In this document: one piece after another, positions 8,642 to 35,139 of the stretch
Layout: every line of letters begins with the position of its first letter
Position numbering within the stretch: the first letter of the stretch is position 1
NCBI GenBank assembly: GCA_002727675.1
Contig: PBXQ01000079.1
Coordinates: 1 to 35,139, forward strand
Length of the DNA stretch: 35,139 nucleotides
From: Thermoplasmata archaeon
Lineage (GTDB): Archaea > Thermoplasmatota > Poseidoniia > Poseidoniales > Thalassarchaeaceae
Direction: 5' to 3'
Translations under genes and position numbers: made by a program
The notes under the pieces: generated by a model
The model's database searches: none
The model's input: only the letters and a program-made list of their open reading frames with translations
Told to the model about the DNA's origin: nothing

Positions 8642-8968
8642 TTAGAACCTACACCAAGCAGGCAATGAATCTGGTGCGCCTGGTACAGTAATAGCAATAA
8701 AAATGAACATCATCAAAATGAAGAATGAGGGGAACAAAGCAGTTAGAGTTAGAATATTACTATCAGGCTCCATTCTCAAATGCATGAAGATGAAAGCAAT
8801 ACCTAGGAATTTAACTACTCCAATGCTAACAAGAATAAATATCACCATTTGTTCACTAATATCTCCATTCACAGATGAAGCAACCGCGCCGACTTCTACA
8901 GCAGTCAATATCATTAGCATTGCAAAATTCATGTTATAAGCGTCTTTTCCAAATATAGTATGACCCAT
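8642..8968 (-). CDS. Cytochrome c oxidase subunit IV-like membrane protein
   Basis: This is a small protein (108 residues) with three membrane helices: about NMNFAMLMILTAVEVGAVA, MVIFILVSIGVVKFLGIAFIFMHL and LTALFPSFFILMMFIFIAI. The KFLGIAFIFMHLRME segment resembles the prokaryotic COX4/caa3 subunit IV family. The ORF track start at 9016 overlaps cox3. I prefer the ATG at 8968, because GGGGGGAG lies four bases before it and it follows the cox3 stop by 11 nt. It is the fourth gene of the oxidase operon and probably stabilises subunits I and III. Its stop lies one base from the opposite-strand tRNA. Confidence 0.8.
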   Translation of the reverse strand: MGHTIFGKDAYNMNFAMLMILTAVEVGAVASSVNGDISEQMVIFILVSIGVVKFLGIAFIFMHLRMEPDSNILTLTALFPSFFILMMFIFIAITVPGAPDSLPAWCRF

Positions 8969-8979
8969 TTTTCTCCCCC

Positions 8980-10158
8980 CTAATACAGATAAAATGCTGG
9001 GAATACCAACACCCAAACCAAATCAACAAAGTGCCAATAAAGTCCGAAATACTCTATAGATACTGAATTATCTGGATTATAACTACCTTTGTGGGCTTTG
9101 TAGGTCATGTATGTTAATCCAATAATCCCTGCAAGTACGTGAGCCCCGTGAGTGCCAGTTGCAACAAAGAAGGTTGCAGCTGAAAGTCGTAAATTTACAT
9201 CAATATATTCGCCACCGTGTCCTCCAAAATGATACAACTCATTGTGGATTGTGTATCCATCGCTCATTAAACTTGGAGCGTAGAATGGTCCAATACTGAA
9301 ACCGACAAACCATTCAACCATTTTTAATATCAAGAACAGAGTTGCTAGTACTAAGGTGGCACCTAGATAATTACGAACTTTCCTTGATCTTTCTGTTGGT
9401 TCCAAATCCGTGCGCTTTGCTGTCTTTAGAGCTAAAACAACTGTAAATGATGAGATAATCAAAGCAAAAGTATTGATTGCGCCAGGTACTAGTGTATCAG
9501 GTAATAGTACTAATGTCCAAGATTCTGCATGTTCTCCTGCAATGAAGTAAGACGCAGGAACCCAGCAAGCATCGCCGGGAGAGAATGGTAGTCCGTTAGA
9601 ATAAGTAGCATGGTTGTCTAGAATTGTTTGACATGATTCAGTACCCATACGGTAACGGATATATGTAGTAAACAAACTTGAGAAGACCATCATTTCTGAC
9701 ATTAAGAACACCCACATTCCAACTTTACGAATATCGATGTTCTGGAATGGTGCTCCTGCAGACTTAGGTTCGTAATGACCATCAAATGAAAGATCTTGTC
9801 GCCACCAAATCAACAAACCAGAACAGATTACAGCTAAACCAACTAAAATCATAGATAGGTAATTTCCATTGTATACTGTATTATTCATATCATCATTCAT
9901 AACAAAAGTAGATGCGAATCCGAATAGGAAAATTGTAAAACCGAATGACATTATTATTGGTGCCCAACTATTGTGTGGCGCTCCATGCTCCCAGTCATGG
10001 GGCCCCCATGCACTGCCATGGTGGTCATCGTGGTGGTCATCATGGTGATCATCATGAGATGGAGGTGCGTGGTTTCTTTTCTTCACCACATATTCTTTCA
10101 TTTTTTCCTCAATAATTTCAGCAATTCGTTCCTCTGTTAGTTCAATATTTGCCTTCAA
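8980..10158 (-). CDS. Cytochrome c oxidase subunit III with His-rich N-terminal extension
   Basis: Residues about 68-392 carry seven membrane helices typical of subunit III: KVGMWVFLMSEMMVFSSLF, THGAHVLAGIIGL and YWHFVDLVWVLVFPAFY (the C-terminal signature). Before them is a 65-residue extension with a charged helix (ELTEERIAEIIEEKMKEY) and a His/Asp repeat (DDHHDDHHDDHH) that could bind metal (inference). The start is TTG overlapping the cox1 stop (TTGA), supported by GGAGGTG five bases upstream. At 392 residues it is longer than the common 190-260. It is part of the terminal oxidase in the cytoplasmic membrane. Confidence 0.92.
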   Translation of the reverse strand: MKANIELTEERIAEIIEEKMKEYVVKKRNHAPPSHDDHHDDHHDDHHGSAWGPHDWEHGAPHNSWAPIIMSFGFTIFLFGFASTFVMNDDMNNTVYNGNYLSMILVGLAVICSGLLIWWRQDLSFDGHYEPKSAGAPFQNIDIRKVGMWVFLMSEMMVFSSLFTTYIRYRMGTESCQTILDNHATYSNGLPFSPGDACWVPASYFIAGEHAESWTLVLLPDTLVPGAINTFALIISSFTVVLALKTAKRTDLEPTERSRKVRNYLGATLVLATLFLILKMVEWFVGFSIGPFYAPSLMSDGYTIHNELYHFGGHGGEYIDVNLRLSAATFFVATGTHGAHVLAGIIGLTYMTYKAHKGSYNPDNSVSIEYFGLYWHFVDLVWVLVFPAFYLY

Positions 10159-11567
10159 TGAATCACCTCCTCTTCATCATTAGGGACCATTAGTTTAGTC
10201 AACCAATTTTCTTTTCTCTCTCCGTGTTCATTTACATCAATCAAAGTGGGTATTTCGTCGAATGAAGGAGTTGGTGGTGGAGATGAAACAAGCCACTCAA
10301 ATGACCAGCCACCCCATGGGTCAGCAGGTGCCTTCTTTCCTTTGACAAGCGTGATAATCATGTTATAAACCATGATTATTGTTGAAAGTCCAAATATAAA
10401 TCCATTAATTGAGATAAACATGTTCCAACTTGCTATTTCCGCGGGCAATGTTCCAACGACATCAGAGTATTCATTTGCTTGAATGAAGTAAGTGTGGTGT
10501 CGGCGAGTCATTCCTAGTAATCCTAATTTGTGCATTGGCCAAAATAGGCCATTATACGATATGAAAGCAATTAAGAAATGCAACATTCCTAATTTTTCGT
10601 TCATCATTTTCCCAGTCATCTTAGGGTACCAGTAGTAAATTGCTGAGAACAAGCCAAACACTACACCACCAACTAAAACGTAGTGGAAATGTGCAACGAC
10701 GAAATAAGTCTCAGTCAAATGTGTATTCATTGCAATTGAAGGGAAAAACATTCCCGAAATTCCACCAAGTGTGAAGGTAATTAAGAATCCTAGTGACCAA
10801 AGCGTGTGAGTACGATATACTAATGATCCACGATGCATGGTTTTTAACCAATTAAATATCTTAATTCCTGTAGGAACAGCAACAAGCATTGTTGTGAGCA
10901 TCATAACGAATCTAAGCCATGGTGCCATTCCACTTGTTAACATGTGGTGTCCGTATACAACAAATGAAAGTATACCGATTCCTGCTAATGCATAAACCAT
11001 TGATTTGTATCCAAAAATAGCTCGCCTAGAACTAGTAGCAAGAACTTCCGAAACTATCCCAAATGCTGGAATAATTACAACATAAACTTCGGGATGTCCG
11101 AAATACCAAAACAAATGACTCCAAAGAAGAGGATCTCCACCGGCGGCTGTATTGAAAAACGCGGTTGCAATTGTTCTATCAAGGATAGCCTCAATTAAGC
11201 CTACACCAAATGCAGGTATTGAAATGAATAAACACATCACTGATACTAATATTGACCATGTAAATAGCGGCATCTGCATCCATCCCATACCAGGTGCGCG
11301 CATTGCAGCAATGGTGGTAATAAAATTAATTCCAGCAAGTGTTGAAGAGGCAACCAACATTAATTGCCCTGCTAGCCAAAAGGTTGTGCCGGGGTGAGTT
11401 GTAACCCAAGATGTGATTGGTTGGTATCCCGTCCACCCAACATCAGCACCAGTTCCTGAGAAAACCCCCATCATAATAAGAATTGAGCCCGCAGGGTTAA
11501 GCCAAAATGCCATTGCATTGATGCGAGGGAATGCCAAATCTTTTGCCCCAATTTGAAGAGGTACAAT
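10155..11567 (-). CDS. Cytochrome c oxidase subunit I, part after the in-frame TGA (helix III to C-terminus)
   Basis: This part continues in the same frame as the 5' part, directly after a TGA codon, beginning IVPLQIGAKDLAFPRINA. It holds the catalytic core: HPEVY with the CuB His and cross-linked Tyr (YFGHPEVYVVIIPAFG), the CuB His pair (VVYGHHMLTSGM), and HFHYVLVGG in helix X with the haem a3 and haem a ligands. The GHPEVY motif indicates an A-type oxygen reductase. All key ligands are intact, so the TGA is either recent, tolerated by readthrough, or a sequence error. The ORF track's TTG start at 11537 corresponds to the Leu in DLAFPR and is unlikely to be a real start. Its stop overlaps the cox3 start. 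Confidence 0.9.
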   Translation of the reverse strand: MVPLQIGAKDLAFPRINAMAFWLNPAGSILIMMGVFSGTGADVGWTGYQPITSWVTTHPGTTFWLAGQLMLVASSTLAGINFITTIAAMRAPGMGWMQMPLFTWSILVSVMCLFISIPAFGVGLIEAILDRTIATAFFNTAAGGDPLLWSHLFWYFGHPEVYVVIIPAFGIVSEVLATSSRRAIFGYKSMVYALAGIGILSFVVYGHHMLTSGMAPWLRFVMMLTTMLVAVPTGIKIFNWLKTMHRGSLVYRTHTLWSLGFLITFTLGGISGMFFPSIAMNTHLTETYFVVAHFHYVLVGGVVFGLFSAIYYWYPKMTGKMMNEKLGMLHFLIAFISYNGLFWPMHKLGLLGMTRRHHTYFIQANEYSDVVGTLPAEIASWNMFISINGFIFGLSTIIMVYNMIITLVKGKKAPADPWGGWSFEWLVSSPPPTPSFDEIPTLIDVNEHGERKENWLTKLMVPNDEEEVIH

Positions 11568-11570
11568 TCA
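11568..11570 (-). other. In-frame TGA interrupting cox1
   Basis: The frame reads GGC TTT GCA AAT TGA ATT GTA CCT, or GFAN-stop-IVPLQIGA. Homologous sequence continues without frameshift on both sides. A single G-to-A change from TGG (Trp) would produce it. TGG is the normal Trp codon elsewhere in the window, and TGA ends several genes here. Confidence 0.85.
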
Positions 11571-12482
11571 ATTTGCAAAGCCATTAATTAAAGGCATAGC
11601 AGCTAAGAAAATCATAACAGTTCCGTGTAATGTAAAGAATTGGTTATATTGGTCTCTAGTCAAGAAATCATTTCCTGGTACGGCAAGTTGAACACGTATT
11701 AATAGTGCAATTACTCCACCTACAATGAAATAAAATAGTCCTGCTACGAAATAAAGAGTCCCGACCTTCTTGTGATCCGTGCTAGTCAACCAATCTGCAA
11801 TCCATGGAGCAAATGATTCCCAACTAAATGATTCAGGGTTCATTCTATAAAATACATAAACTAAACTAATTACTAACAAAGAAATAACTAGTAATAATGC
11901 TGAGAATAAAACAGTCATTGCATCTGCTGGTTCCACATTCGAAACTTCTTCTCCACCTATGGCGGCGATTGAATAAGTTGATTGAGCCCAAGCGTCATCT
12001 CCATTGATATCTGGTTCTCCATTTCCATTAACTGAATTTACTGATAATAGGAAACTTACTTCGCCACTACTAGGGGCTGTCCATTCTACAGACCAATTCA
12101 TTTGGTCATTGCCTGTAGTTGAATGAGTAAGCTCTCCTGCAATCATCTGGGTTGTGTCGTCTAGTATAGTAAAAGTTCCAGAACTAGAAACAAGGTTGAA
12201 TCCACCAGTATTTATTCTGTTTTCGTCAACAACAGCCCCGGGTCCACCAGAAAATCCGAATGATAATGTGTATGTTTCACCAGCATTGTATTCAGAAGGT
12301 AAAGCACTACCATTTCCTAATGTCATAAATGGCGATACATCTCCACTTGGACTGCCTCCATGACAAGTACATCCCATCTGAACATTATTGATTCCCCCGG
12401 ACCTCGCTTGAAGGCTAGGGGCAAACATTAACGATGCGATTAACAAAGTAGTAATTACAATAATTTTTTTGTTTATTTGCAT
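11568..12482 (-). CDS. Reeler-like extracytoplasmic domain fused to the N-terminus of cytochrome oxidase subunit I, up to the in-frame TGA
   Basis: A signal peptide (IIVITTLLIASLMFAPSLQA) leads into RSGGINNVQMGCTCHGG and a beta-rich domain of about 170 residues, like Reeler/choice-of-anchor V type domains that start with a Cys-His motif. The motif here is CTCH rather than the haem-binding CxxCH. A membrane helix (VLFSALLLVISLLVISLVYV) links it to the first two helices of subunit I: STDHKKVGTLYFVAG and FFTLHGTVMIF, whose His is the low-spin haem ligand. The frame then meets TGA. The ORF track starts at TTG 12509. The ATG at 12482 (MQINKK) fits better, eight bases after GAGG; 12488 is the alternative. 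The preceding cox2 stop is 10 nt upstream. Confidence 0.85.
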   Translation of the reverse strand: MQINKKIIVITTLLIASLMFAPSLQARSGGINNVQMGCTCHGGSPSGDVSPFMTLGNGSALPSEYNAGETYTLSFGFSGGPGAVVDENRINTGGFNLVSSSGTFTILDDTTQMIAGELTHSTTGNDQMNWSVEWTAPSSGEVSFLLSVNSVNGNGEPDINGDDAWAQSTYSIAAIGGEEVSNVEPADAMTVLFSALLLVISLLVISLVYVFYRMNPESFSWESFAPWIADWLTSTDHKKVGTLYFVAGLFYFIVGGVIALLIRVQLAVPGNDFLTRDQYNQFFTLHGTVMIFLAAMPLINGFAN

Positions 12483-12492
12483 AATCATCGCC

Positions 12493-13137
12493 TCACTCGT
12501 GCACCTCAAGAATTGCAGTCATATATGCGTGGTCATCTCCACAATATTCAGCACAGTCTATGAAGAATTCACCAGTAATATCAGGAGTCAACCACATTGA
12601 AGTGTATAGCCCAGGAACAGCATCTTCTTTAGCACCCCATTGAACAACGAAAGGAGCGTGTGTAACATCTTCTGCAGTAATATTGAATCTGTAAATTATA
12701 TCTTTCTTGACACTCAAAAGAGTCAATCCTGTTTCATTATGAACACCTACATCACATAGATCACTGCTTAAGTCACGACAATCAAAGTCCCAATACCATT
12801 GCTTTCCTGTAAGGCCGATTTCGAAGTAATCTTCTCCTTCAACCCCTACTGAAGATGGGTCTGCCCAGACATCAGATGCGGGTGTTAATGAAATATATGT
12901 CAAGTATAAAATCAAAATAGTTGGAACAATAATCCAAGCCAATTCTAATTTAAAATTGTCATTATGGCGGGGAAACTCGCCCACAGTTATGTCATCAATA
13001 TTTGGGACTTCACCATCTTTAGACACGTAGAAGAATGAATGGTGTAAAAGCCACCCAAAAACAATAACACCTACTACGATAGACCAATCCCAAAATATAG
13101 CAAATAACTCATTGTATGCCTCTCCGCCTACGGCCAT
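12493..13137 (-). CDS. Cytochrome c oxidase subunit II (CuA)
   Basis: Two N-terminal membrane helices (ELFAIFWDWSIVVGVIVFGWLL and LELAWIIVPTILILYLTYI) precede a cupredoxin domain. The CuA ligands are all present: DVTHAPFV (first His) and DCAEYCGDDHAYM (CxxxCxxxHxxM). QWYWDF is the aromatic electron-entry stretch. The best start is the ATG at 13137 (MAVGGEAYNEL), preceded by GAGAGGAA at proper distance, giving 214 residues; the ORF track start at 13200 lacks a ribosome site. It accepts electrons from a soluble or membrane cytochrome/cupredoxin and passes them to subunit I. It is the first gene of the oxidase operon. Confidence 0.93.
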   Translation of the reverse strand: MAVGGEAYNELFAIFWDWSIVVGVIVFGWLLHHSFFYVSKDGEVPNIDDITVGEFPRHNDNFKLELAWIIVPTILILYLTYISLTPASDVWADPSSVGVEGEDYFEIGLTGKQWYWDFDCRDLSSDLCDVGVHNETGLTLLSVKKDIIYRFNITAEDVTHAPFVVQWGAKEDAVPGLYTSMWLTPDITGEFFIDCAEYCGDDHAYMTAILEVHE

Positions 13138-13233
13138 GCCTATTCCTCTCAACCCTCCGGTAAAGCAGTCCGTAGTTAAGCGTTGGCAGATGCTATACAA
13201 CTGTGGTTAATTTATCAACTCAAAAAAATCAAT

Positions 13234-24207: not shown

Positions 24208-24972
24208 ATGGCGAAGAAGGCGGGGTCGGCTAAGAAGAAGTCAGATAGTGCTGCAGCAAAGAAAAAATCAGCGGCGGCAAAGAAGGCAGCAGAGACAAGA
24301 AAGAAGAATGCAGCAGCCAAGAAAAAGGCAGCAGCAGCGAAAAAAGCAGCAGAAACTCGCAAAAAGAATGCAGCAGCCAAGAAAAAGGCTGAAGCAGCAG
24401 CAGCCAAGAAAAAGGCAGCAGCAGCGAAAAAAGCAGCGGAAACTCGCAAAAAGAATGCAGCAGCCAAGAAAAAGGCAGCGGAAGAAGCAGAAGCAGCTGC
24501 AAAAAGAAAGGTTGCAGCAGCTAAGGCGGCAGCCACAAGAGCTGCTAAAAAGGCAGAAAAAGCGGCTGCAGAAAAAGCAGCAGCGAAAAAGGCAAAAGCG
24601 GCAAAGGCAGCAGCAACTCGTAAGAAAAACGCAGCTGCTAAAGCTAAAGCAAAGGCAGACGCAGAAGCAGCGGAAGCAGCTCGTTTAGCCCTTGAAGCAA
24701 AGCGTAAACCCGGTTTGTTACTTGCTTCAGATCAAAAAGATGCAAATGTTGCTAAAAAGTTGCGAGCAAGAGCAGCCACATCAACAGCAGCTACTCACGT
24801 TGATTCACGCCAAGAAGTTTCTAAAATCATGTCAAAGGCAGTTAAATCCGGTTCTGGCAAGAAAGAAACTGCAGAAAAGAGGAAAAAGGCATTTCATAAG
24901 CGCTGGCTCGAAGGTGGTAATGCAAAAACGATTGAAGAGTTTGCCTGGCAAAGAGAGTTTCTTAATTCATAA
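24208..24972 (+). CDS. Lys/Ala-rich histone H1-like DNA-binding protein
   Basis: The first 165 residues are almost only Ala and Lys in repeats such as AKKAAETRKKNAAAKKKA, like eukaryotic H1 tails and bacterial HC1/HC2-type proteins. Such tails bind DNA without sequence preference and compact or neutralise it. The last 85 residues (KPGLLLASDQKDANVAKKLR, KRKKAFHKRWLEGGNAKTIE) are less repetitive and may be a folded unit. It has no signal peptide. The role is inferred from composition; ribosome or RNA binding is also possible. Opposite-strand ORFs here are shadows of the repeats. Confidence 0.75.
   Translation: MAKKAGSAKKKSDSAAAKKKSAAAKKAAETRKKNAAAKKKAAAAKKAAETRKKNAAAKKKAEAAAAKKKAAAAKKAAETRKKNAAAKKKAAEEAEAAAKRKVAAAKAAATRAAKKAEKAAAEKAAAKKAKAAKAAATRKKNAAAKAKAKADAEAAEAARLALEAKRKPGLLLASDQKDANVAKKLRARAATSTAATHVDSRQEVSKIMSKAVKSGSGKKETAEKRKKAFHKRWLEGGNAKTIEEFAWQREFLNS
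24321..24476 (+). repeat. Two 69-bp direct repeats within the H1-like gene
   Basis: 24321-24389 and 24408-24476 are nearly identical (one visible A/G change), giving an 87-bp period. They begin GAAAAAGGCAGCAGCAGCG. A third, more diverged unit precedes them. Repeat number may vary between strains by slippage or recombination. Confidence 0.8.
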
Positions 24973-25198: not shown

Positions 25199-26245
25199 TT
25201 ATTCGATTTCTCCGAATAAATCAGGCTCTTGTGCTCTATGATATACTTCTCTTAGGGTTTGATCAGTTATGTCAAGATAAACACGAGTTGTGCTGATATC
25301 AGCGTGTCCGAGTAGTCTCTGAATACTAACAATATCTGCGCCACGCTCAAGTAAGCCAGTTGCAAAATTATGCCTCAATGTATGAGGTGAAAGGCGTTTT
25401 CTTGGAATGTGCGCCTCATCTGCAAGTTTGTCCATCATTTTTTGTACGTTTCTTTGAGTAAGTCTGTGCCCTCGCGAATTTATGAATAATGCTTCTTCAT
25501 CTGTAGTATTTCGTGTGGTCTTATGCAACATCCATTTTTCCATTACTGATTTACTCAGTTTAGTGAATAAAACTCGGCGGTCTTTGTTTCCTTTTCCAGA
25601 CCATACTGTTGCAGATAAATCATTAAAATCAATATCAGAGATATTCAATGCACATAATTCACCAACCCTCAGACCTGTTTCTAATAATACAACAACGATT
25701 ACTTCTGCAAGAGGATTTTCTGATTGACGGCAAACTTTGATTAAATCATTCAGTTCTTGACGAGTTAAAGTACGGGGTAATTTTTTACTTCTCTGCGGGC
25801 GTACAATCCATTCAGGAATAGTATGTCCAATCCATTTCAATAAATGTGTTATTGCAGCCAATCGGGCATTAATTGTTGATGGCTGTAAATGAGAGATGGA
25901 TTGCAACCAAATATCAAGTCGGCCGTTATTTGGATCAAGATGACCAACTGATTTAATCATGGTAAAATCTTCGATTTCCTCGTCAGTTAATTTTTCTTCA
26001 CATGGTAAATTAGTTGCAATTAGTTGACGGGAAGCAATAAAATATGCTCTTGATGTGTGTTTACTCTTCTTTTCTGAAACTAATTGTTGTTTATAGCAAC
26101 CAAGCATTGGCAAGTCTCTGAGCCGAGATAATCTGGCTGGTAATGTGAAACCATGACCTACTACTTCATCACTAAAACGCTCAAGATATTGGCGATTACC
26201 AGAATCAGCCCATGTCTGTTTTTCATCATTATTTTTCTGCGACAT
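25199..26245 (-). CDS. Tyrosine recombinase, XerA/XerD-like
   Basis: This 348-residue enzyme cuts and rejoins DNA via a 3'-phosphotyrosine. The catalytic set is complete: Arg 193 (TGLRVGELCAL), Lys 218 (SGKGNKDR), His 298/Arg 301 (SPHTLRHNFATG), His 324 (LLGHADISTT) and Tyr 333 (TRVYLDIT). A SAM-like N-terminal core-binding domain (about 45-150) precedes it. Its size and layout fit archaeal XerA, which resolves chromosome dimers at dif, though a mobile-element integrase cannot be excluded. No mobile-element genes are nearby, favouring a housekeeping role. The upstream leader can form a hairpin covering its ribosome site. Confidence 0.88.
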   Translation of the reverse strand: MSQKNNDEKQTWADSGNRQYLERFSDEVVGHGFTLPARLSRLRDLPMLGCYKQQLVSEKKSKHTSRAYFIASRQLIATNLPCEEKLTDEEIEDFTMIKSVGHLDPNNGRLDIWLQSISHLQPSTINARLAAITHLLKWIGHTIPEWIVRPQRSKKLPRTLTRQELNDLIKVCRQSENPLAEVIVVVLLETGLRVGELCALNISDIDFNDLSATVWSGKGNKDRRVLFTKLSKSVMEKWMLHKTTRNTTDEEALFINSRGHRLTQRNVQKMMDKLADEAHIPRKRLSPHTLRHNFATGLLERGADIVSIQRLLGHADISTTRVYLDITDQTLREVYHRAQEPDLFGEIE

Positions 26246-26391: not shown

Positions 26392-27597
26392 TCACAAATA
26401 ATCACTGCTAAATTCTACAGTTGATGGATTGAAATTATCATTCTGTGAATGGGAAATCCAAGGTTCAAGTTGTTCGTGAATTTTGTTTAATTCTCCATAA
26501 CAAATTATTTCATCACCTTTTCTCAGAATAAATGTTCTTCTTGGTTTCCAAATGTGCATACCTTCACGTGCAATTGCAAATACCACATTGTGTTGTTCTA
26601 TATCTGTGAATAAATCACCAATTTGTTTGCCATTAAGGATTTGGTGCCTTGCTGTTGAAAAACTCACCACTCCATGTCCTGGTCGGCTTCGTAATAGTTG
26701 GTCCAATCCAACTTTACTAAACCCTTGATGGGCTATACAATAATCAATTATAGCACCAGCAACATTAATTCCAGATGCAGACTCAATTCCTTCTAATCCG
26801 GGAGATGAATTTACTTCTAAAACCAAAGGTCCTCGATTGCTTTCTAACAAATCAACACCAGCCACATCTAAATTTAACAAACGCGCAGCACGTGTAGCAA
26901 CTTCTGCGTATTCTCGTGGTAAGTCTATTTTTTCGACTGTCCCATTAAGGTGGAAATTTGAACGAAATTCCGTCCCTCTAGCTTTTCTTCGCATTGCTGC
27001 AACTACTTCGCCACCCACTACTAATACACGTACATCCCGCCCATGACTTTCTTCTATGTATTCCTGAACAAGTACGTGATGGCCTTCTGATAGTAATTTG
27101 TAAGTCAATTCTCTTGCTCTGTCTTCAGAATTAACTAAGAATACTCCACTACCTTGTGTGCCTTCTGTAACTTTAATCACAATTGGCATACCCCCTACTT
27201 GATGCAATGCTCTTTCCACATCTTGCCAAGCGCGAACATGGCAAGTAGTTGGGACAGGTATTCTGTTTTTTGTCAACAATTGTGTTGCATGTAATTTATC
27301 TCTACTTTGACTAATGCCATCACCGCTGTTAGCTACATAAATTCCAAGACGCTCAAATTGACGAATTAAAGCAACTCCATGATGGGTGATAGAATAACCA
27401 ATTCTTGGGATTACAGCATCAACTTCAACAGGCCAACCTGAATTTAGTATTCTTGGTTCTTCATTTCCAACGGTAATACTGAGTCTCATTGGATCTAATA
27501 CCTCAACGTAACAATCACGTTTCTCAGCCTCCTCAACCAGACGACGGGTACTGTACAAACGAGGGCCACGTGAAAGGATAGCTAGGCGCACCGTCAT
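26392..27597 (-). CDS. rimK: RimK-family ATP-grasp glutamate ligase with C-terminal RCK_C-like domain
   Basis: Residues 1-290 are a RimK/MptN/LysX-type ATP-grasp ligase: an N-terminal domain (MTVRLAILSRGPRLYSTRRL), Lys 142 in PIVIKVTEGTQGSGV, the QEYIEES hinge, GRDVRVLVVGGEVVAAMRR and the metal/ATP site LVLEVNSSPGLEGI. It joins Glu or similar amino acids to a protein or cofactor: S6, F420 and tetrahydromethanopterin are known substrates in the family. RimK is usually about 300 residues; here about 100 more form a TrkA-C/RCK_C-like domain (HQILNGKQIGDLF, FAIAREGMHIWKP, LRKGDEIICYGE). That domain often binds a regulatory ligand. The start at the minus-strand ATG is well placed. Confidence 0.88.
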   Translation of the reverse strand: MTVRLAILSRGPRLYSTRRLVEEAEKRDCYVEVLDPMRLSITVGNEEPRILNSGWPVEVDAVIPRIGYSITHHGVALIRQFERLGIYVANSGDGISQSRDKLHATQLLTKNRIPVPTTCHVRAWQDVERALHQVGGMPIVIKVTEGTQGSGVFLVNSEDRARELTYKLLSEGHHVLVQEYIEESHGRDVRVLVVGGEVVAAMRRKARGTEFRSNFHLNGTVEKIDLPREYAEVATRAARLLNLDVAGVDLLESNRGPLVLEVNSSPGLEGIESASGINVAGAIIDYCIAHQGFSKVGLDQLLRSRPGHGVVSFSTARHQILNGKQIGDLFTDIEQHNVVFAIAREGMHIWKPRRTFILRKGDEIICYGELNKIHEQLEPWISHSQNDNFNPSTVEFSSDYL

Positions 27598-27756: not shown

Positions 27757-29070
27757 ATGGAAACAGGCCCCTCAGGACCGCCCGCTTCAGGACCGACCGG
27801 TCCCCCTACAGTGGGTCCATCTGGTCCACCTTCATCAGGCCCTTCAGGCCCTCCTGCGACAATTAAAGGCCCACCAACCAAAGTAAAAGGCCCTCCTGTT
27901 AAAGTCAAAGGACCTCCTAAATCCTTAGCAACTCCTTTTTCAAAGAATGAGATGAAAGAAGAAGATTATGAGGGTCTTGCTGAACAAAATATTGTTCGCC
28001 AAAAGGAATTAGACCGTCGTGATAAAGAAATTGAATTAAAAAAAGAGAAAAATGAAAAGCGTAACAATGTAATATTATTGCTTCTTTTCATGGTCATTTT
28101 TGGCATTGCTGCTTTGTGGCCTATTTCTCATGGAGATATTTCAAGAAATCCACACCAGAACGGTGAAGAGCATGTAATTGTACAACGTTATGCTCAACAA
28201 ACATGGACAAAAGATGATTTGGAATTAATGGATTCAAAGATTTGGGATGGGAATGATGTTTCATCAGGTTCCTTTCAATATGATTTATCTCTTCCAGGAA
28301 TTCCAGTAGCAATTAATGGCGTTACCACTGTATCAATTGAAGTCTCACTCATTAGTTATCGTTCTGATAGCGCTGGTACGGGTTTCAGACTAGGTTTATT
28401 CTCTTCAACTTGTATTGATAATATGGGTGTATCAATGGATGATCTTGATGCTAATTATATCCGTGAAAAAGATTCAATGATTATTGGGGATGAAGTAAAG
28501 GTTGAATTTGAAGTTCCCGCTGGTAAATATTGCTTAATATTTGAATATACAGATCCAGTACCATCGGATGAGCGAGGTTACCGTGCAACAATTGATGCAG
28601 AGATTATAGCACATTGGAATACTCCACTTTTTGCTCCATTATCTGGATTAATGGGTCTTTTAGCAATTTTTGCTGCTGTTGGTGCCCATAAAGTTGGTAA
28701 GGCTTGGAAGGCGGTAGCACAACCGGAAAATCCCGATAAGCAATCTACTGCAGAAGAAGTTTTAGAGCAAGCAGAAAAAGAACGTGGAGCAATGTCTGAA
28801 ACTGGAGTTGATGACGCCCTAGATGAAGAAGAACCCTCATCCGAATCTTCAGAGGAATCAGCAATTGAAACTCCCGAAGAGACACCAACTACTGAAATAC
28901 CAGTAGAGTCACCTCCAGAAGAATCTGTAGCAGAAGAACAAACGGATTCAACTGAACAAGAAGAGTCTGAAAAAATTTACACAGATGATGAGTTACGTGC
29001 ATTTGGTTGGACTGAAGAACAGATAGAATGGCAAAGACAGGCAGAGGCTATTCAAGATAATCAAGAATAG
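27757..29070 (+). CDS. GPP-repeat membrane protein with acidic C-terminal tail
   Basis: The first 56 residues are a low-complexity Gly-Pro repeat (GPSGPPSSGPSGPP, then KGPPTKVKGPPVKVKGPP), collagen-like in composition. A charged helix (QKELDRRDKEIELKKEKNEK) follows, then a membrane helix (about 104-121). An extracellular beta-rich domain of about 165 residues comes next, then a second helix (SGLMGLLAIFAAVGAH). The C-terminal roughly 120 residues are Glu/Ser/Pro/Thr-rich and end with YTDDELRAFGWTEEQIEWQR. There is no signal peptide, so the GPP segment probably lies in the cytoplasm. It lies upstream of the SAP protein and parA on the same strand. The function is unknown. Confidence 0.75.
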   Translation: METGPSGPPASGPTGPPTVGPSGPPSSGPSGPPATIKGPPTKVKGPPVKVKGPPKSLATPFSKNEMKEEDYEGLAEQNIVRQKELDRRDKEIELKKEKNEKRNNVILLLLFMVIFGIAALWPISHGDISRNPHQNGEEHVIVQRYAQQTWTKDDLELMDSKIWDGNDVSSGSFQYDLSLPGIPVAINGVTTVSIEVSLISYRSDSAGTGFRLGLFSSTCIDNMGVSMDDLDANYIREKDSMIIGDEVKVEFEVPAGKYCLIFEYTDPVPSDERGYRATIDAEIIAHWNTPLFAPLSGLMGLLAIFAAVGAHKVGKAWKAVAQPENPDKQSTAEEVLEQAEKERGAMSETGVDDALDEEEPSSESSEESAIETPEETPTTEIPVESPPEESVAEEQTDSTEQEESEKIYTDDELRAFGWTEEQIEWQRQAEAIQDNQE

Positions 29071-29155
29071 GACTCAAATTGATTTTGGGGTTTGCTTTAA
29101 TGTCTTGCAAATTACCAATTCCATAACAAAAGGCCGAAGATGTTGAAAGCCTCTA

Positions 29156-29179
29156 GTGTCCCCTATCATCTTGGGACAC
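29156..29179 (+). promoter_or_regulatory. Hairpin directly before the SAP-protein start
   Basis: GTGTCCC (29156-29162) and GGGACAC (29173-29179) pair perfectly over a 10-nt loop, ending three bases before the ATG at 29183. It could limit ribosome access or mark an operator. If translation began at the GTG 29156 the hairpin would lie within the coding region. Confidence 0.4.
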
Positions 29180-29182
29180 AGA

Positions 29183-31261
29183 ATGGTTGCTGATTCATCG
29201 CCTACTGCTTCTGAGCTAAAATCTATGAATGTGGCCACTTTGAAAGAAATGTGTAAAGAACATGGTTTGAAGGTTTCAGGTAAAAAACAGGAACTTATTG
29301 ACAGGTTATTAGAGGCGACAGCATCTGATGATGATATTTTTCTCTTAGAAGAGGAAGATGATGTAGATGTAATCTATGAAGCTGAAATTGAAGAAGAGGC
29401 TTTTGAACCCTCTATAATTGAAGAAGTAGAAGACGAAATTTTAGATGCTGAAGTTTTCGAAGCAGAACTCTTCGAAGATGAAGAAGAAGATTTTTTCCAA
29501 GAATCTGAACCCAAGGCTGTTAGGAAAACAAGATTACAAGGAGAATCTATATTTTCATCATTATCTAAACCTAATGTAATTGCAACTTTATTAGTTGTAT
29601 TAATTATTGCAGGTGGTGGATATTGGTATTGGAGTAGTCATCTAGATCCGTTTGTCTCTAAGCCCATAGAATATGGAGATCAAATGGAATTTACTATATC
29701 TAGTGGTACATTTGAGGTCGAGGGCGAAGAAATGATTAGAGAGATTGACAATCGTCTTAATGGTGCTCTTGCAGAAATTTGTGAAAAAATTAATGTTGAA
29801 TTTTATGGTTCCGGGGATATTTCTGTTAAGAAGGGAACTAGTAGTGAATTACTAGATTCATCAGACACAAAATTACTCGGGACAGTACAGGCAAAAGATG
29901 CCTATGGGTTGACATTTCTTGCAGTTGAACAAGAATTGACACACCAACTTACTGCAAACATAGAATCTAAAACTTGGTTTGGTGATTCTTCAGAAGGACA
30001 TTGTTCAGTAGAGGGTTCAGTTCCTGGTTATTCTTTATCTCAAACATCTAAATCATGGACTGAAATTGGTAGTAAAGCATTGCTAAGTACTGATTCCTCA
30101 TTAACTTTAGAAGATCCACAAGGTGCTGAAACCTCAATCAATGCAGTATCATTTGGCGTTCCTGATGATTCTTTATCTGATATCATGCCTGAATTATTAC
30201 TTCCCTTAAAACCCGTTGAACTAACTCCTTTATTTGGTAATTCATTACTTGAAGAAGGAAGTAGTGGAACTAGTGGATATTGGGATTGGGTGGTTAGTGG
30301 TTCAGTATCTGTTGATGGAGTAAAGGGATTACAAATCAATATGCAACATACAGAAATTGAAGATTGTATAGGTAGAGCAAACATGGTTCTCTATGTTGTA
30401 CCTTCATCTCCTTGGGCTGTAGAACAACGTGTTGATATTAATCTTGAAAAAAGTCGTTACGATTCATCTGGTTGTGGAGTTTTTGCTGAATATTTAATCG
30501 ACCAAACATTGCCAGAAGGGTCCATAAGTATTCAATATACATTGGTTAAATCATCTATTAATGAGGGTGATGGCATGATTAATTGGCTAGAAGGTTACAA
30601 TCATCGCCCCGCTTCAAATTCAGGTGCAATATCAGCAAATCAAAACTGGGGTAATTCTGGCACGCATATGCCTGACCTAAGCGAATCAAGAGATTGGACA
30701 TTAGATGATGCTGTTGCATGTATAATTAACAAAACAGTTGAGGCTAATGATGCTGCAATTTCTCTAGCATCAGGGGGGTATGTATTCAAAGCTACAGATG
30801 ATAGAAGTAATGGCAATACTCAATGGAATGTTTCGTGGGTGGATGACAATAATGCAGGATGGGTAATAGTTGAAAGTAGGACAGAAAATTGTTCAGTATT
30901 AAGTTTAGATTCTCTTAATGAAGCCGATAGCCCAGCACATAGAAGAGAGAGCATTCCGAAATCAGCCACGATTAAAGAAATTGAAGATAGGATTATCGAT
31001 CCAGAAAGGTATCCTTCATTGGTATCAGATATCACGTCTAATGGTAAATTAACCAGTGATACAACAATTGGGTATTTCTTGACAGTGCCACCCGAAGCAA
31101 ATGATTTGTTAGATTTGATAGATGGTTATCAAGATGGAACAATTGGTGTTACAGGACAACGTGAATGGACTGAAAATGGATTAGATCATTCACTAAATTA
31201 TGCAATTGATGGCACAAATGGCAGAATGGTTGGCTGGATCAAAACTTCTTCAAATTCCTAA
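29183..31261 (+). CDS. SAP-domain single-pass membrane protein
   Basis: The N-terminus carries a SAP motif (SELKSMNVATLKEMCKEHGL, KVSGKKQELIDRLLEA), a helix-extended-helix fold that binds AT-rich DNA in known proteins. An acidic Glu/Asp stretch (about 55-115) and a basic hinge (KAVRKTRLQGES) follow, then one membrane helix (IATLLVVLIIAGGGYWYW). The remaining roughly 535 residues lie outside, beta-rich with few Cys (EDCIGR, SGCGVF). Thus DNA binding faces the cytoplasm and a large domain faces out. I prefer the ATG at 29183 (MVADSSPTASEL, 692 residues); the ORF track uses GTG 29156. It directly precedes parA, so a membrane-DNA tether is an attractive but unproven role. Confidence 0.78.
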   Translation: MVADSSPTASELKSMNVATLKEMCKEHGLKVSGKKQELIDRLLEATASDDDIFLLEEEDDVDVIYEAEIEEEAFEPSIIEEVEDEILDAEVFEAELFEDEEEDFFQESEPKAVRKTRLQGESIFSSLSKPNVIATLLVVLIIAGGGYWYWSSHLDPFVSKPIEYGDQMEFTISSGTFEVEGEEMIREIDNRLNGALAEICEKINVEFYGSGDISVKKGTSSELLDSSDTKLLGTVQAKDAYGLTFLAVEQELTHQLTANIESKTWFGDSSEGHCSVEGSVPGYSLSQTSKSWTEIGSKALLSTDSSLTLEDPQGAETSINAVSFGVPDDSLSDIMPELLLPLKPVELTPLFGNSLLEEGSSGTSGYWDWVVSGSVSVDGVKGLQINMQHTEIEDCIGRANMVLYVVPSSPWAVEQRVDINLEKSRYDSSGCGVFAEYLIDQTLPEGSISIQYTLVKSSINEGDGMINWLEGYNHRPASNSGAISANQNWGNSGTHMPDLSESRDWTLDDAVACIINKTVEANDAAISLASGGYVFKATDDRSNGNTQWNVSWVDDNNAGWVIVESRTENCSVLSLDSLNEADSPAHRRESIPKSATIKEIEDRIIDPERYPSLVSDITSNGKLTSDTTIGYFLTVPPEANDLLDLIDGYQDGTIGVTGQREWTENGLDHSLNYAIDGTNGRMVGWIKTSSNS

Positions 31262-31296
31262 TTATTAGGGTGAATTGTCCCGTCACCCTCAATAAT
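31261..31296 (+). repeat. Strong inverted repeat immediately upstream of parA
   Basis: ATTATTAGGGTGA (31261-31273) pairs with TCACCCT-C-AATAAT (31283-31296) over 13 bp with one bulge and a 9-nt loop. It overlaps the SAP gene's TAA region and ends about 18 nt before the parA start. It has no T-run, so it is not a typical terminator. It may be an operator or a partition site. Confidence 0.55.
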
Positions 31297-31314
31297 GCTT
31301 GAGGTGCCGCTGAC

Positions 31315-32271
31315 ATGGGTGAATCGATGAGAGGCGAAGAAAATAGCATCCCTGCTGCTGCTCCCGCACCTTTTGTAATCGATGTTGAATTTGTCGAGGA
31401 GGAGATAATTAGTCCTGAGCCACAAGAAGTTGGCCAAGCACAAATTCGTGAACCTCTAGACTTACCTCGTGCAGCTCCTACGCCTAAAGGAAGGGCCAGG
31501 GTTGTAACTGTAATCAATCAAAAAGGTGGAGTAGCAAAAACTACTACAGTAATCAATGTAGCAGCCCACCTTGCTATTCAAGGAGTAAAGGTTCTTGTGA
31601 TTGATTGTGATGCTCAGGGTAATTGTGCTACAGGTTATGGTATTGATAAATCAAGGATTAATTATGGTACAAGGACACTAATGGTTTCGCCAGAAGATGC
31701 AATTAGGGCAAGACATGCAACAGCCATAGAAAACCTCCATTTGATTGTAGCAGATAGGAAACTAGTTGGTATTGAAGAAGAATTAATTTCTCAACTTGGC
31801 CGGGAAAGAAGATTAGCAGAAGGCATAGAGATTCTCCTGCCTCATTATGATTTAATTCTAATTGACACCCCCCCTTCTCTTGGATTAGTTAGTATTAATG
31901 CATTAGTTGCTTCAGATGCTGTTGTAATTCCAGTTCAAACTGAATATTTTGCCTTAGAAGGATTAGCACTTCTATCTTCAACTATTAGAGAAATACGTCG
32001 CCGGCTTAATCCAAAACTGGGGGTAGATGCAGTGATTTTAACAATGCATGCCCCAACTCTTCTCAATGGCCAAGTAGCGTCTCAAGTAAGAGAAACATTC
32101 CCTGATTTAGTTTTAGATCCTCCAATCCGCAGAAACATTAGAATTGCAGAAGCACCGTCACATGGAACTCCAATTCATATTCATGCTCCAAAAAGTGCCG
32201 GAGGTCAAGATTATTTGCATTTGTCAAATTCTTTGATGAAATTATGGAATTTTGGTGAAGATAATGGGTGA
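31315..32271 (+). CDS. parA: ParA/Soj-family partition ATPase
   Basis: The deviant Walker A is INQKGGVAKTTTVINVAAHL (signature Lys about 70, catalytic Lys about 75). Walker A' is VLVIDCDAQGNCATGYG and Walker B is YDLILIDTPPSLGLVSINAL. The C-terminal DPPIRRNIRIAEAPSHGTPI is typical of chromosomal ParA/Soj, which move DNA through ATP-dependent nucleoid binding. A 60-residue acidic, Pro-rich N-terminal extension precedes the domain, unusual for Soj-type ParA. GAGGTG lies eight bases before the ATG. It overlaps the mini-ParB gene by 8 nt. Its operon-like position after the SAP membrane protein suggests a DNA-segregation or positioning role. Confidence 0.92.
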   Translation: MGESMRGEENSIPAAAPAPFVIDVEFVEEEIISPEPQEVGQAQIREPLDLPRAAPTPKGRARVVTVINQKGGVAKTTTVINVAAHLAIQGVKVLVIDCDAQGNCATGYGIDKSRINYGTRTLMVSPEDAIRARHATAIENLHLIVADRKLVGIEEELISQLGRERRLAEGIEILLPHYDLILIDTPPSLGLVSINALVASDAVVIPVQTEYFALEGLALLSSTIREIRRRLNPKLGVDAVILTMHAPTLLNGQVASQVRETFPDLVLDPPIRRNIRIAEAPSHGTPIHIHAPKSAGGQDYLHLSNSLMKLWNFGEDNG

Positions 32272-32734
32272 AAAAACAAACAAGCCAAAGAAGGGGCTTG
32301 GGCGTGGTTTGGGTGATTTACTTGCTCAACATGATACTGATTTACCGTTTCTTTCAGCATATGGGGAAGCAACAGGAGAACATGAAAAAGGAGTTCCTGC
32401 ATCAGCAGGTCAAGATAATTCCGATGAATTATTTGATGTGTGTCATAGATTTCTAATTTCTACATCAGGTTCTGAAAATCTCAAATTACACAAAAAGAAA
32501 ATCAGTGTGGGGGATTGGCTTGTAGTATCAAAGTCAAAAACTAATGGAATTGAATTGCATGTAGTCGGGATTAATTTACCCCTTGTCCCATCAGATTTAG
32601 TTACACCCGGAATGGTTGATGGTGCATTATCTGAAGATAGAAGCGAGGCAACAGTATGTATTATTCAGTGGGGAATAGAGTCAAGGAGATTACTTAGTCG
32701 TCTTTGTGAACATTTTACATTATTATCAAACTAA
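32264..32734 (+). CDS. Small ParB-like protein with only the ParA-activating N-terminal motif
   Basis: The start KPKKGLGRGLGDLLAQHD matches the N-terminal KxGLGRGL peptide that in ParB/Spo0J stimulates ParA ATPase. ParB then usually continues with a ParB/CTPase domain and an HTH; neither is visible. Instead a short linker leads to a roughly 100-residue beta-rich domain of unknown kind (FDVCHRFLISTSGSEN, VGDWLVVSKSKTNGIELHVV). I take ATG 32264 (MGEKTNK, 156 residues), because GGTG lies seven bases before it and the ATG overlaps the ParA stop. Its 3' end overlaps the convergent peptidase gene by 9 nt. It is probably the partner of ParA. Confidence 0.7.
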   Translation: MGEKTNKPKKGLGRGLGDLLAQHDTDLPFLSAYGEATGEHEKGVPASAGQDNSDELFDVCHRFLISTSGSENLKLHKKKISVGDWLVVSKSKTNGIELHVVGINLPLVPSDLVTPGMVDGALSEDRSEATVCIIQWGIESRRLLSRLCEHFTLLSN

Positions 32735-34741: not shown

Positions 34742-35139
34742 TCAACTGTATGTGATGGTATGCTCAATCTCCATCATGGACAACTCGTAGCCGCTGTAGG
34801 TGCCTTTCGACTCGAAGTACAGGCGTGTGTCCATGACCGTGATGTAGTTCGCATACCCACTTCCGCCTCCGCTGTAGATGTCTGCAACCTGCCATGTACA
34901 ACCACAAATCGTCTCGTGTACCCACAGTTCGTAGCCAGTGACCCCATCTATCGCCTCGAAGTACAGCCGTGTGCCCATGGCCGTGATGTCGGTCGGATAC
35001 CCACTACTGCTGCCACTGTTGATGTCTGCTGCTTGCCAAGTCGAGCCGTTTGTGGTTTCGTGTACCCACAGTTCGAAGCCGCTGTTGCCGTCGACCGCCT
35101 CGAAGTACAGTCGCGTGCCCATGACCGTGATCTCGTTCG
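34742..35139 (-). CDS. C-terminal part of an ELW-repeat (hyalin-like) surface protein, 5' end outside window
   Basis: The frame is open to the window edge and starts before it (first visible residues NEITVMGTRLYFEA). It shows repeats of 48 residues (144 bp): TRLYFEAVDGNSGFELWVHE, then GYELWVHE, then a degenerate last copy ending ITYS. These are like ELWxxD/E beta-propeller-like repeats found in secreted archaeal and bacterial proteins. The region is much more GC-rich than the rest of the window. Upstream domains such as signal or propeller blades are not visible. A calcium or glycan surface role is inference. Confidence 0.75.
   Translation of the reverse strand, partial: NEITVMGTRLYFEAVDGNSGFELWVHETTNGSTWQAADINSGSSSGYPTDITAMGTRLYFEAIDGVTGYELWVHETICGCTWQVADIYSGGGSGYANYITVMDTRLYFESKGTYSGYELSMMEIEHTITYS

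Follow-up and report, generated by a model that had tools for sequence, protein, structure and literature searches.

Conserved ParA gene clusters of Poseidoniales in which a ParB-type peptide is borne by a small novel protein or by an EamA-family transporter

The four-gene locus and its genomic neighborhood

The window (the entire stretch of 35,139 nucleotides that was analyzed) comes from a Poseidoniales MAG that is 71% complete. Between positions 27757 and 32734 it contains four tandem plus-strand genes, the last two of them overlapping, just as the first-pass annotation had described. These encode GPP (27757..29070; 437 aa), SAP-TM (29156..31261; 701 aa from a GTG start, with the ATG at 29183 as the alternative), ParA1 (31315..32271; 318 aa) and MPB (32264..32734). 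The start of MPB is likely to be the ATG at 32264 rather than the TTG at 32252, because its near relatives begin at the same ATG, which creates an 8-nt overlap with the ParA1 stop.

Upstream of the cluster and divergently oriented lie the genes for a RimK-type ATP-grasp ligase (26392..27597, minus strand) and a XerA-type tyrosine recombinase (25199..26245, minus strand). This arrangement recurs almost everywhere, with XerA found in 66 of the 67 RimK-holding loci, and the larger ORF145-ORF329-XerA-RimK block is likewise conserved upstream of the cluster. The RimK-type ligase of the window is extended at its C-terminus by about 110 residues that weakly match TrkA_C. Close to XerA there is a very Lys/Ala-rich, histone-H1-like protein (24208-24972), and similar proteins occupy the same place in loci of genera 20 and 22 (6532-6996 of L184 and 2349-2825 of L186). 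Further afield, the window contains a cluster of heme-copper (cytochrome) oxidase subunit genes with an adjoining tRNA-Ser (8642-13200), and at 34742-35122 the C-terminal part of a tandem-repeat protein (ADINSGSSSGYPTDITAMGTRLYFEA), which is probably a surface beta-propeller-like repeat.

Architectures of the membrane proteins GPP and SAP-TM

GPP comprises a Gly/Pro-rich N-terminal tail, a hydrophobic segment (aa 105-123), a beta-rich outer domain with two invariant cysteines, a second hydrophobic segment (aa 291-309) and an acidic C-terminal tail. The first-pass annotation was thus right in regarding it as a membrane protein, but not in assigning it a single membrane segment; with two such segments, both tails should be cytoplasmic.

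The N-terminal SAP domain of SAP-TM is unequivocal (PF02037, E 1.2e-12; 47.5 bits against a gathering cut-off of 23.9) and is matched in 28 of 31 aligned members, the other three rows being without the N-terminus. SAP domains bind DNA, usually without strong sequence specificity. The domain is followed by an acidic linker with a conserved EAEI-type motif, one transmembrane helix (approximately residues 139-159) and an ectodomain of about 530 aa, whose six invariant cysteines make it consistent with a location outside the cell. The combination of a SAP motif, a membrane helix and a large outer domain in one polypeptide, as read in the first pass, therefore stands. Predicted-structure matches of the ectodomain to LolA/RseB/ApoB-like folds had low TM-scores, and no fold was assigned on their basis. 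The SAP-TM profile matches 292 of the 293 genomes of the class, and the protein is present in all Poseidoniales genera. The full-length protein is confined to this order: the sister order (21 genomes) yields only matches of E 1e-6 to 1e-10, and a phylum-wide search recovered no full-length match outside Poseidoniales.

ParA1 is a Soj/ParA-type ATPase

ParA1 matches PF13614 (E 2.1e-53) and displays the deviant Walker A sequence QKGGVAKTTT, which is kept in 96 of 97 aligned members, the remaining one being without that stretch. Its nearest solved relative is the Myxococcus xanthus ParA (8RAY; E 3.7e-53), while the archaeal Soj/SegA-type 7DUT is recovered at E 7.7e-16, and its score with the archaeal MinD model TIGR01969 (46.1 bits) falls below the cut-off of 201.75. 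Thus, judged by sequence, it is a genuine ParA of the chromosomal Soj/ParA type, far from both SegA and MinD. The DNA-binding arginine of the M. xanthus protein (R238) corresponds to R276 of ParA1, which is Arg or Lys in all 97 aligned members, and R273 is invariant among them; both residues map to the DNA-binding site of the M. xanthus protein. Four of the six ParB-pocket positions (L189, L191, I194 and L231) are hydrophobic across the order; the other two, and most of the site that accommodates R13 in M. xanthus (Y81, D110), are not conserved. E156 (equivalent to M. xanthus E117) is otherwise common and is replaced by Val in genus-16 sequences, which also have a degenerate MPB peptide, a single case that is suggestive.

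The N-terminal extension of ParA1 carries a conserved I-D-x-E-F-x-E-x-E signature. In its fuller form, (I/V)-(I/V)-D-x-E-F-x-E-x-E, at aa 19-30 (31369-31410), it resembles the EAEI-x-EAE motif of the SAP-TM linker, and the two motifs might bind the same partner. A second ParA, unlinked to the window and overlapping a gene for a MoxR-type AAA ATPase (L114, 5209-7312; G000:C44), is about 40-47% identical over the matched part and is present almost throughout the order. A literature search for ParA of Poseidoniales gave no paper.

MPB combines a ParB-type peptide with a distinct C-terminal domain

The N-terminus of MPB contains the peptide KKGLGRGLGDLL at aa 9-20, with LGRGL at aa 12-16. A DLPFLxxYG motif follows, and then a predicted alpha-beta domain (aa 53-155); the pLDDT of the predicted structure is low (45-55) for aa 1-50 and about 90 for aa 51-150. 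In M. xanthus ParB, ParA binding depends on residues L11, L15, L18 and I19 and stimulation of the ATPase on R13 (PMC12462528); L12, R14, L16, L19 and L20 of MPB show a spacing identical to that of L11, R13, L15, L18 and I19. The ParA-binding motif of ParB has been defined in a survey as (L/F/I)G(K/R)G(L/F/I) (PMC12704722). Among the 1,295 ORFs of at least 150 aa at the Poseidoniales loci (401,168 aa) it occurs 51 times, of which 19 are in MPB, 29 in the EamA proteins described below and 3 elsewhere.

No Pfam or NCBIfam model matched MPB, and neither the ParB CTPase domain (PF02195) nor an HTH was detected in it with these collections, which rules out that MPB is a ParB. The designation "mini-ParB" used in the first pass hence holds for the peptide and not for the protein as a whole. 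A consistent ParB-domain gene was likewise not found by PF02195 searches across 24 genomes, with none in G000 and scattered weak matches in others. Foldseek comparisons of the predicted domain recovered the C-domain of T4 MotA (E 0.011, TM <0.55) and type III secretion chaperones (E 0.08), both too weak to assign a fold, and no confident structural match to a DNA-binding fold. In ParA systems that position cargo, a charged disordered N-terminal peptide of the partner activates the ParA and the remainder of the partner serves the cargo (PMC10241942); MPB, with a charged disordered N-terminus and a separate remainder, has this organization, as do the EamA fusions.

Conservation and variation across Poseidoniales

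A ParA1 search of genome contigs recovered 80 Poseidoniales loci; in every one whose sequence extends far enough, ParA1 is immediately preceded by SAP-TM. The four genes are conserved across the order far beyond chance, and for this reason the possibility entertained in the first pass, that their order is unique to this genome, fails. Three architectures can be distinguished. The first, GPP-SAP-ParA1-MPB, is seen in the window's family in genera 1, 3 and 7, to which component searches add genus 2, and in the other family in genera 16, 17, 19 and 21. The second, without ParA1, typifies genera 12-15, 18, 20 and 22, all seven of which belong to the other family. In six of them (13, 14, 15, 18, 20 and 22) SAP-TM and MPB adjoin directly and, save in genus 20, where MPB is present and GPP is not detectable, are preceded by GPP; in the seventh, genus 12, MPB has relocated to a site about 100 kb from SAP-TM. 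The loss of ParA1 in these seven genera is accompanied by no replacement at the locus. The third, SAP-ParA1-EamA, is found in genera 4, 5, 6 and 8-11 of the window's family, in which both GPP and MPB are absent from the genome. Of the order's 22 genera, 14 possess GPP. In each family 7 of the 11 genera are missing part of the set, namely ParA1 in the other family and both GPP and MPB in the window's family. The four-gene module proposed in the first pass is accordingly a conserved set with a membrane SAP protein, a ParA and an activating-peptide protein, but not an obligatory quartet, as ParA1, GPP and MPB are variably lost.

The MPB peptide is intact in six of the eight genera with ParA1 and in two of the seven without it; these lineages are not independent, and the difference lies only in the expected direction and is not significant. 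Strict co-evolution of the peptide with ParA1 is ruled out: genera 20 and 22 are without ParA1 yet keep a peptide-like MPB start (LSKGFEDLF and LGRGLDELL, respectively), and genera 16 and 19 possess ParA1 with a degenerate peptide. In genera without ParA1 that keep the peptide, the second, unlinked ParA could be the partner of MPB.

Replacement of MPB by an EamA transporter in Thalassarchaeaceae

In 55 of the 80 loci, all on a monophyletic Thalassarchaeaceae branch, ParA1 is followed by a gene for an EamA-type transporter with two stretches each matching PF00892 (E 1.3e-25 to 5.3e-22). In 35 of these 55 loci (including L113 and two read by eye, L089 and L092) the peptide is present in frame at the N-terminus of the transporter, starting at the ParA1 stop codon; in one example the N-terminus reads MTSKGLGRGLESIAELAKDGPDLSSYVS and then enters the first transmembrane helix. 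The DLSSFV sequence after the EamA peptide resembles the DLPFL of MPB, which suggests that the first part of MPB was retained in its entirety. The fourth gene overlaps or abuts ParA1 in both the MPB and the EamA versions. In a ParA1 tree that includes 54 of the EamA loci, with one extra MPB row for the window and the cut locus L113 left out, all EamA loci form one clade (support 99/98), which places the exchange of MPB for EamA as a single event in this phylogeny.

The same tree indicates three to five losses of the peptide within the EamA clade, in lineages that retained ParA1. The motif was not found elsewhere within the loci of peptide-less genomes, and a comparison of ParA1 pockets between the groups with and without the peptide revealed no fixed differences. 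Across 33 fusions the L, G, R and L of the motif are invariant, and the equivalent of L18, which was not among the criteria used to select them, is always V, I, L or M, while the linker is variable; this pattern indicates selection on the EamA peptide where it is retained. EamA is immediately followed in this clade by a nitroreductase-like gene on the opposite strand (L044, 9909-10670), which was apparently gained together with it. With the peptide on a polytopic membrane protein in one clade, the membrane link suspected in the first-pass annotation is stronger than could be seen from the window. A literature search gave no description of a transporter with a ParA-binding motif, and no transporter is known to us as the partner of a ParA.

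Potential functional mechanisms

The above architectural and contextual observations suggest that the cluster might couple the nucleoid to the membrane in the manner of ParA systems that position cargo, with a membrane-linked partner, a reading that we consider as having an even chance of being correct. As predicted from these sequence features, ATP-bound ParA1 would coat the nucleoid, and the partner with the LGRGL peptide would bind ParA1 dimers and stimulate ATP hydrolysis, whereby it would move along, or spread over, the nucleoid. In the ancestral version MPB would contact GPP and/or SAP-TM in a membrane complex that holds the partner; in the derived clade the EamA transporter itself would be the membrane partner. 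Independently of ATP, SAP-TM would link DNA to the membrane a second time.

This reading is favored because the ParA-binding motif is concentrated in MPB and EamA, the MPB residues coincide with those experimentally required in ParB, and ParA1 is closest to 8RAY and keeps pocket residues and the DNA-binding arginine. It is further favored by the single nature of the exchange, with the first part of MPB kept in frame, by the residues maintained in the 33 fusions, by the adjoining of SAP-TM and MPB after ParA1 loss in most such genera, by the joint absence of MPB and GPP from all seven EamA genera, and by the overlap or abutment of the fourth gene with ParA1. Against it count the repeated losses of the EamA peptide with ParA1 staying, the discordant genera 20 and 22 on one hand and 16 and 19 on the other, the lack of conservation of Y81 and D110, and the distance between SAP-TM and MPB in genus 12. 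The co-loss of MPB and GPP is largely confined to one clade, and genus 20 runs counter to it. Adjacency of the genes by itself is weak evidence, because the upstream neighbors are also syntenic. A more specific version of this proposal, which we advance tentatively, is that the ParB-type peptide, once borne by a soluble adaptor, was transferred to EamA, such that ParA may couple the nucleoid directly to a membrane transporter, with the membrane-anchored SAP protein as a second DNA tether, in a system that extends across the order.

The first-pass annotation had also considered chromosome segregation, in which ParA1 would move sister chromosomes apart, its DNA-bound partner would be MPB or SAP-TM, and the membrane would provide a fixed anchor. 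We regard this as unlikely. The chromosomal type of ParA1 would suit such a role, as would the DNA-binding capacity of SAP domains and the conserved proximity of XerA, but no canonical ParB lies beside the ParA: MPB is without the ParB domain and its predicted domain without a confident DNA-binding match, the 24 genomes are without a consistent ParB-domain gene, and the ParB survey concluded that archaea generally lack chromosomal ParABS (PMC12704722). If the peptide is attached to a membrane protein, the nucleoid would likewise be pulled with respect to the membrane, yet ParA1 is dispensed with in seven genera. In the one closed contig (G036), which itself has no ParA1, about 290 kb separate SAP-TM from the closest Orc1/Cdc6 gene; the sampled GC skew of this single contig is flat and shows no origin. 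In sum, nothing found here favors segregation over the positioning of a membrane complex.

SAP-TM might instead be a membrane-spanning one-component sensor whose ectodomain perceives a signal from outside the cell and whose SAP domain regulates DNA, with ParA1 and MPB being separate and adjacent by chance. Its near-universal presence even without ParA1 agrees with this, but the SAP-ParA1-MPB order, the short gaps and the SAP-MPB adjacency after ParA1 loss suggest a link between these genes. RseB is a periplasmic stress sensor; the likeness of the ectodomain to LolA/RseB-like beta folds is nevertheless weak, and the limited sequence specificity usual in SAP domains fits poorly with such regulation, making this explanation quite improbable. 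It is decidedly unlikely that the cluster is merely a slowly rearranging region of functionally unrelated genes with the EamA peptide as a fusion relic, an idea that could account for the conserved upstream block, the repeated loss of the peptide and the displacement of MPB in genus 12, but not for the overlap or abutment of ParA1 with either fourth gene, nor for L, G, R, L and a hydrophobic L18-equivalent being kept in 33 divergent fusions.

Relationship to known systems and general implications

As a nucleoid-membrane coupling system, the Poseidoniales cluster would be comparable to ParC/PpfA of chemotaxis clusters, McdA/McdB of carboxysomes and PomXYZ, in which a ParA ATPase is likewise combined with a partner bearing an N-terminal activating peptide. 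Unlike these, it is archaeal, the role of partner would fall either to MPB, a small new domain, or to a transporter of the EamA family, and its locus includes a membrane-anchored SAP protein. With bacterial chromosomal ParABS it shares a Soj-type ParA with the DNA-binding arginine and a partner peptide LGRGLxxLL of experimentally defined spacing (PMC12462528), but the peptide is on a different protein, MPB having neither the ParB CTPase domain nor the HTH. Like SegAB of Sulfolobus and AspA-ParB-ParA of pNOB8, it pairs an archaeal ParA-family ATPase with an archaeal partner; however, in contrast to SegAB, its ATPase resembles bacterial ParA far more closely than 7DUT, and family searches, which gave no match, point to MPB being unrelated to SegB or AspA. 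MinD4 of Haloferax, an archaeal member of the same ATPase superfamily as ParA1, positions a surface machine, namely the archaellum (cited in PMC7617429); ParA1 differs from it in scoring 46 bits against the 201.75 cut-off for archaeal MinD and in keeping the DNA-binding arginine of ParA.

The positioning and segregation of archaeal chromosomes are largely an open question, and the observations presented here describe, in an order of abundant archaea of the ocean, a ParA of bacterial type whose candidate partners are not ParB proteins yet bear a textbook activating peptide. The swap of a soluble protein for a transporter amounts to a natural experiment, in which two unrelated partners bear one peptide. 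If the proposed coupling is true, an integral membrane transporter would itself act as the partner of a ParA in these archaea.
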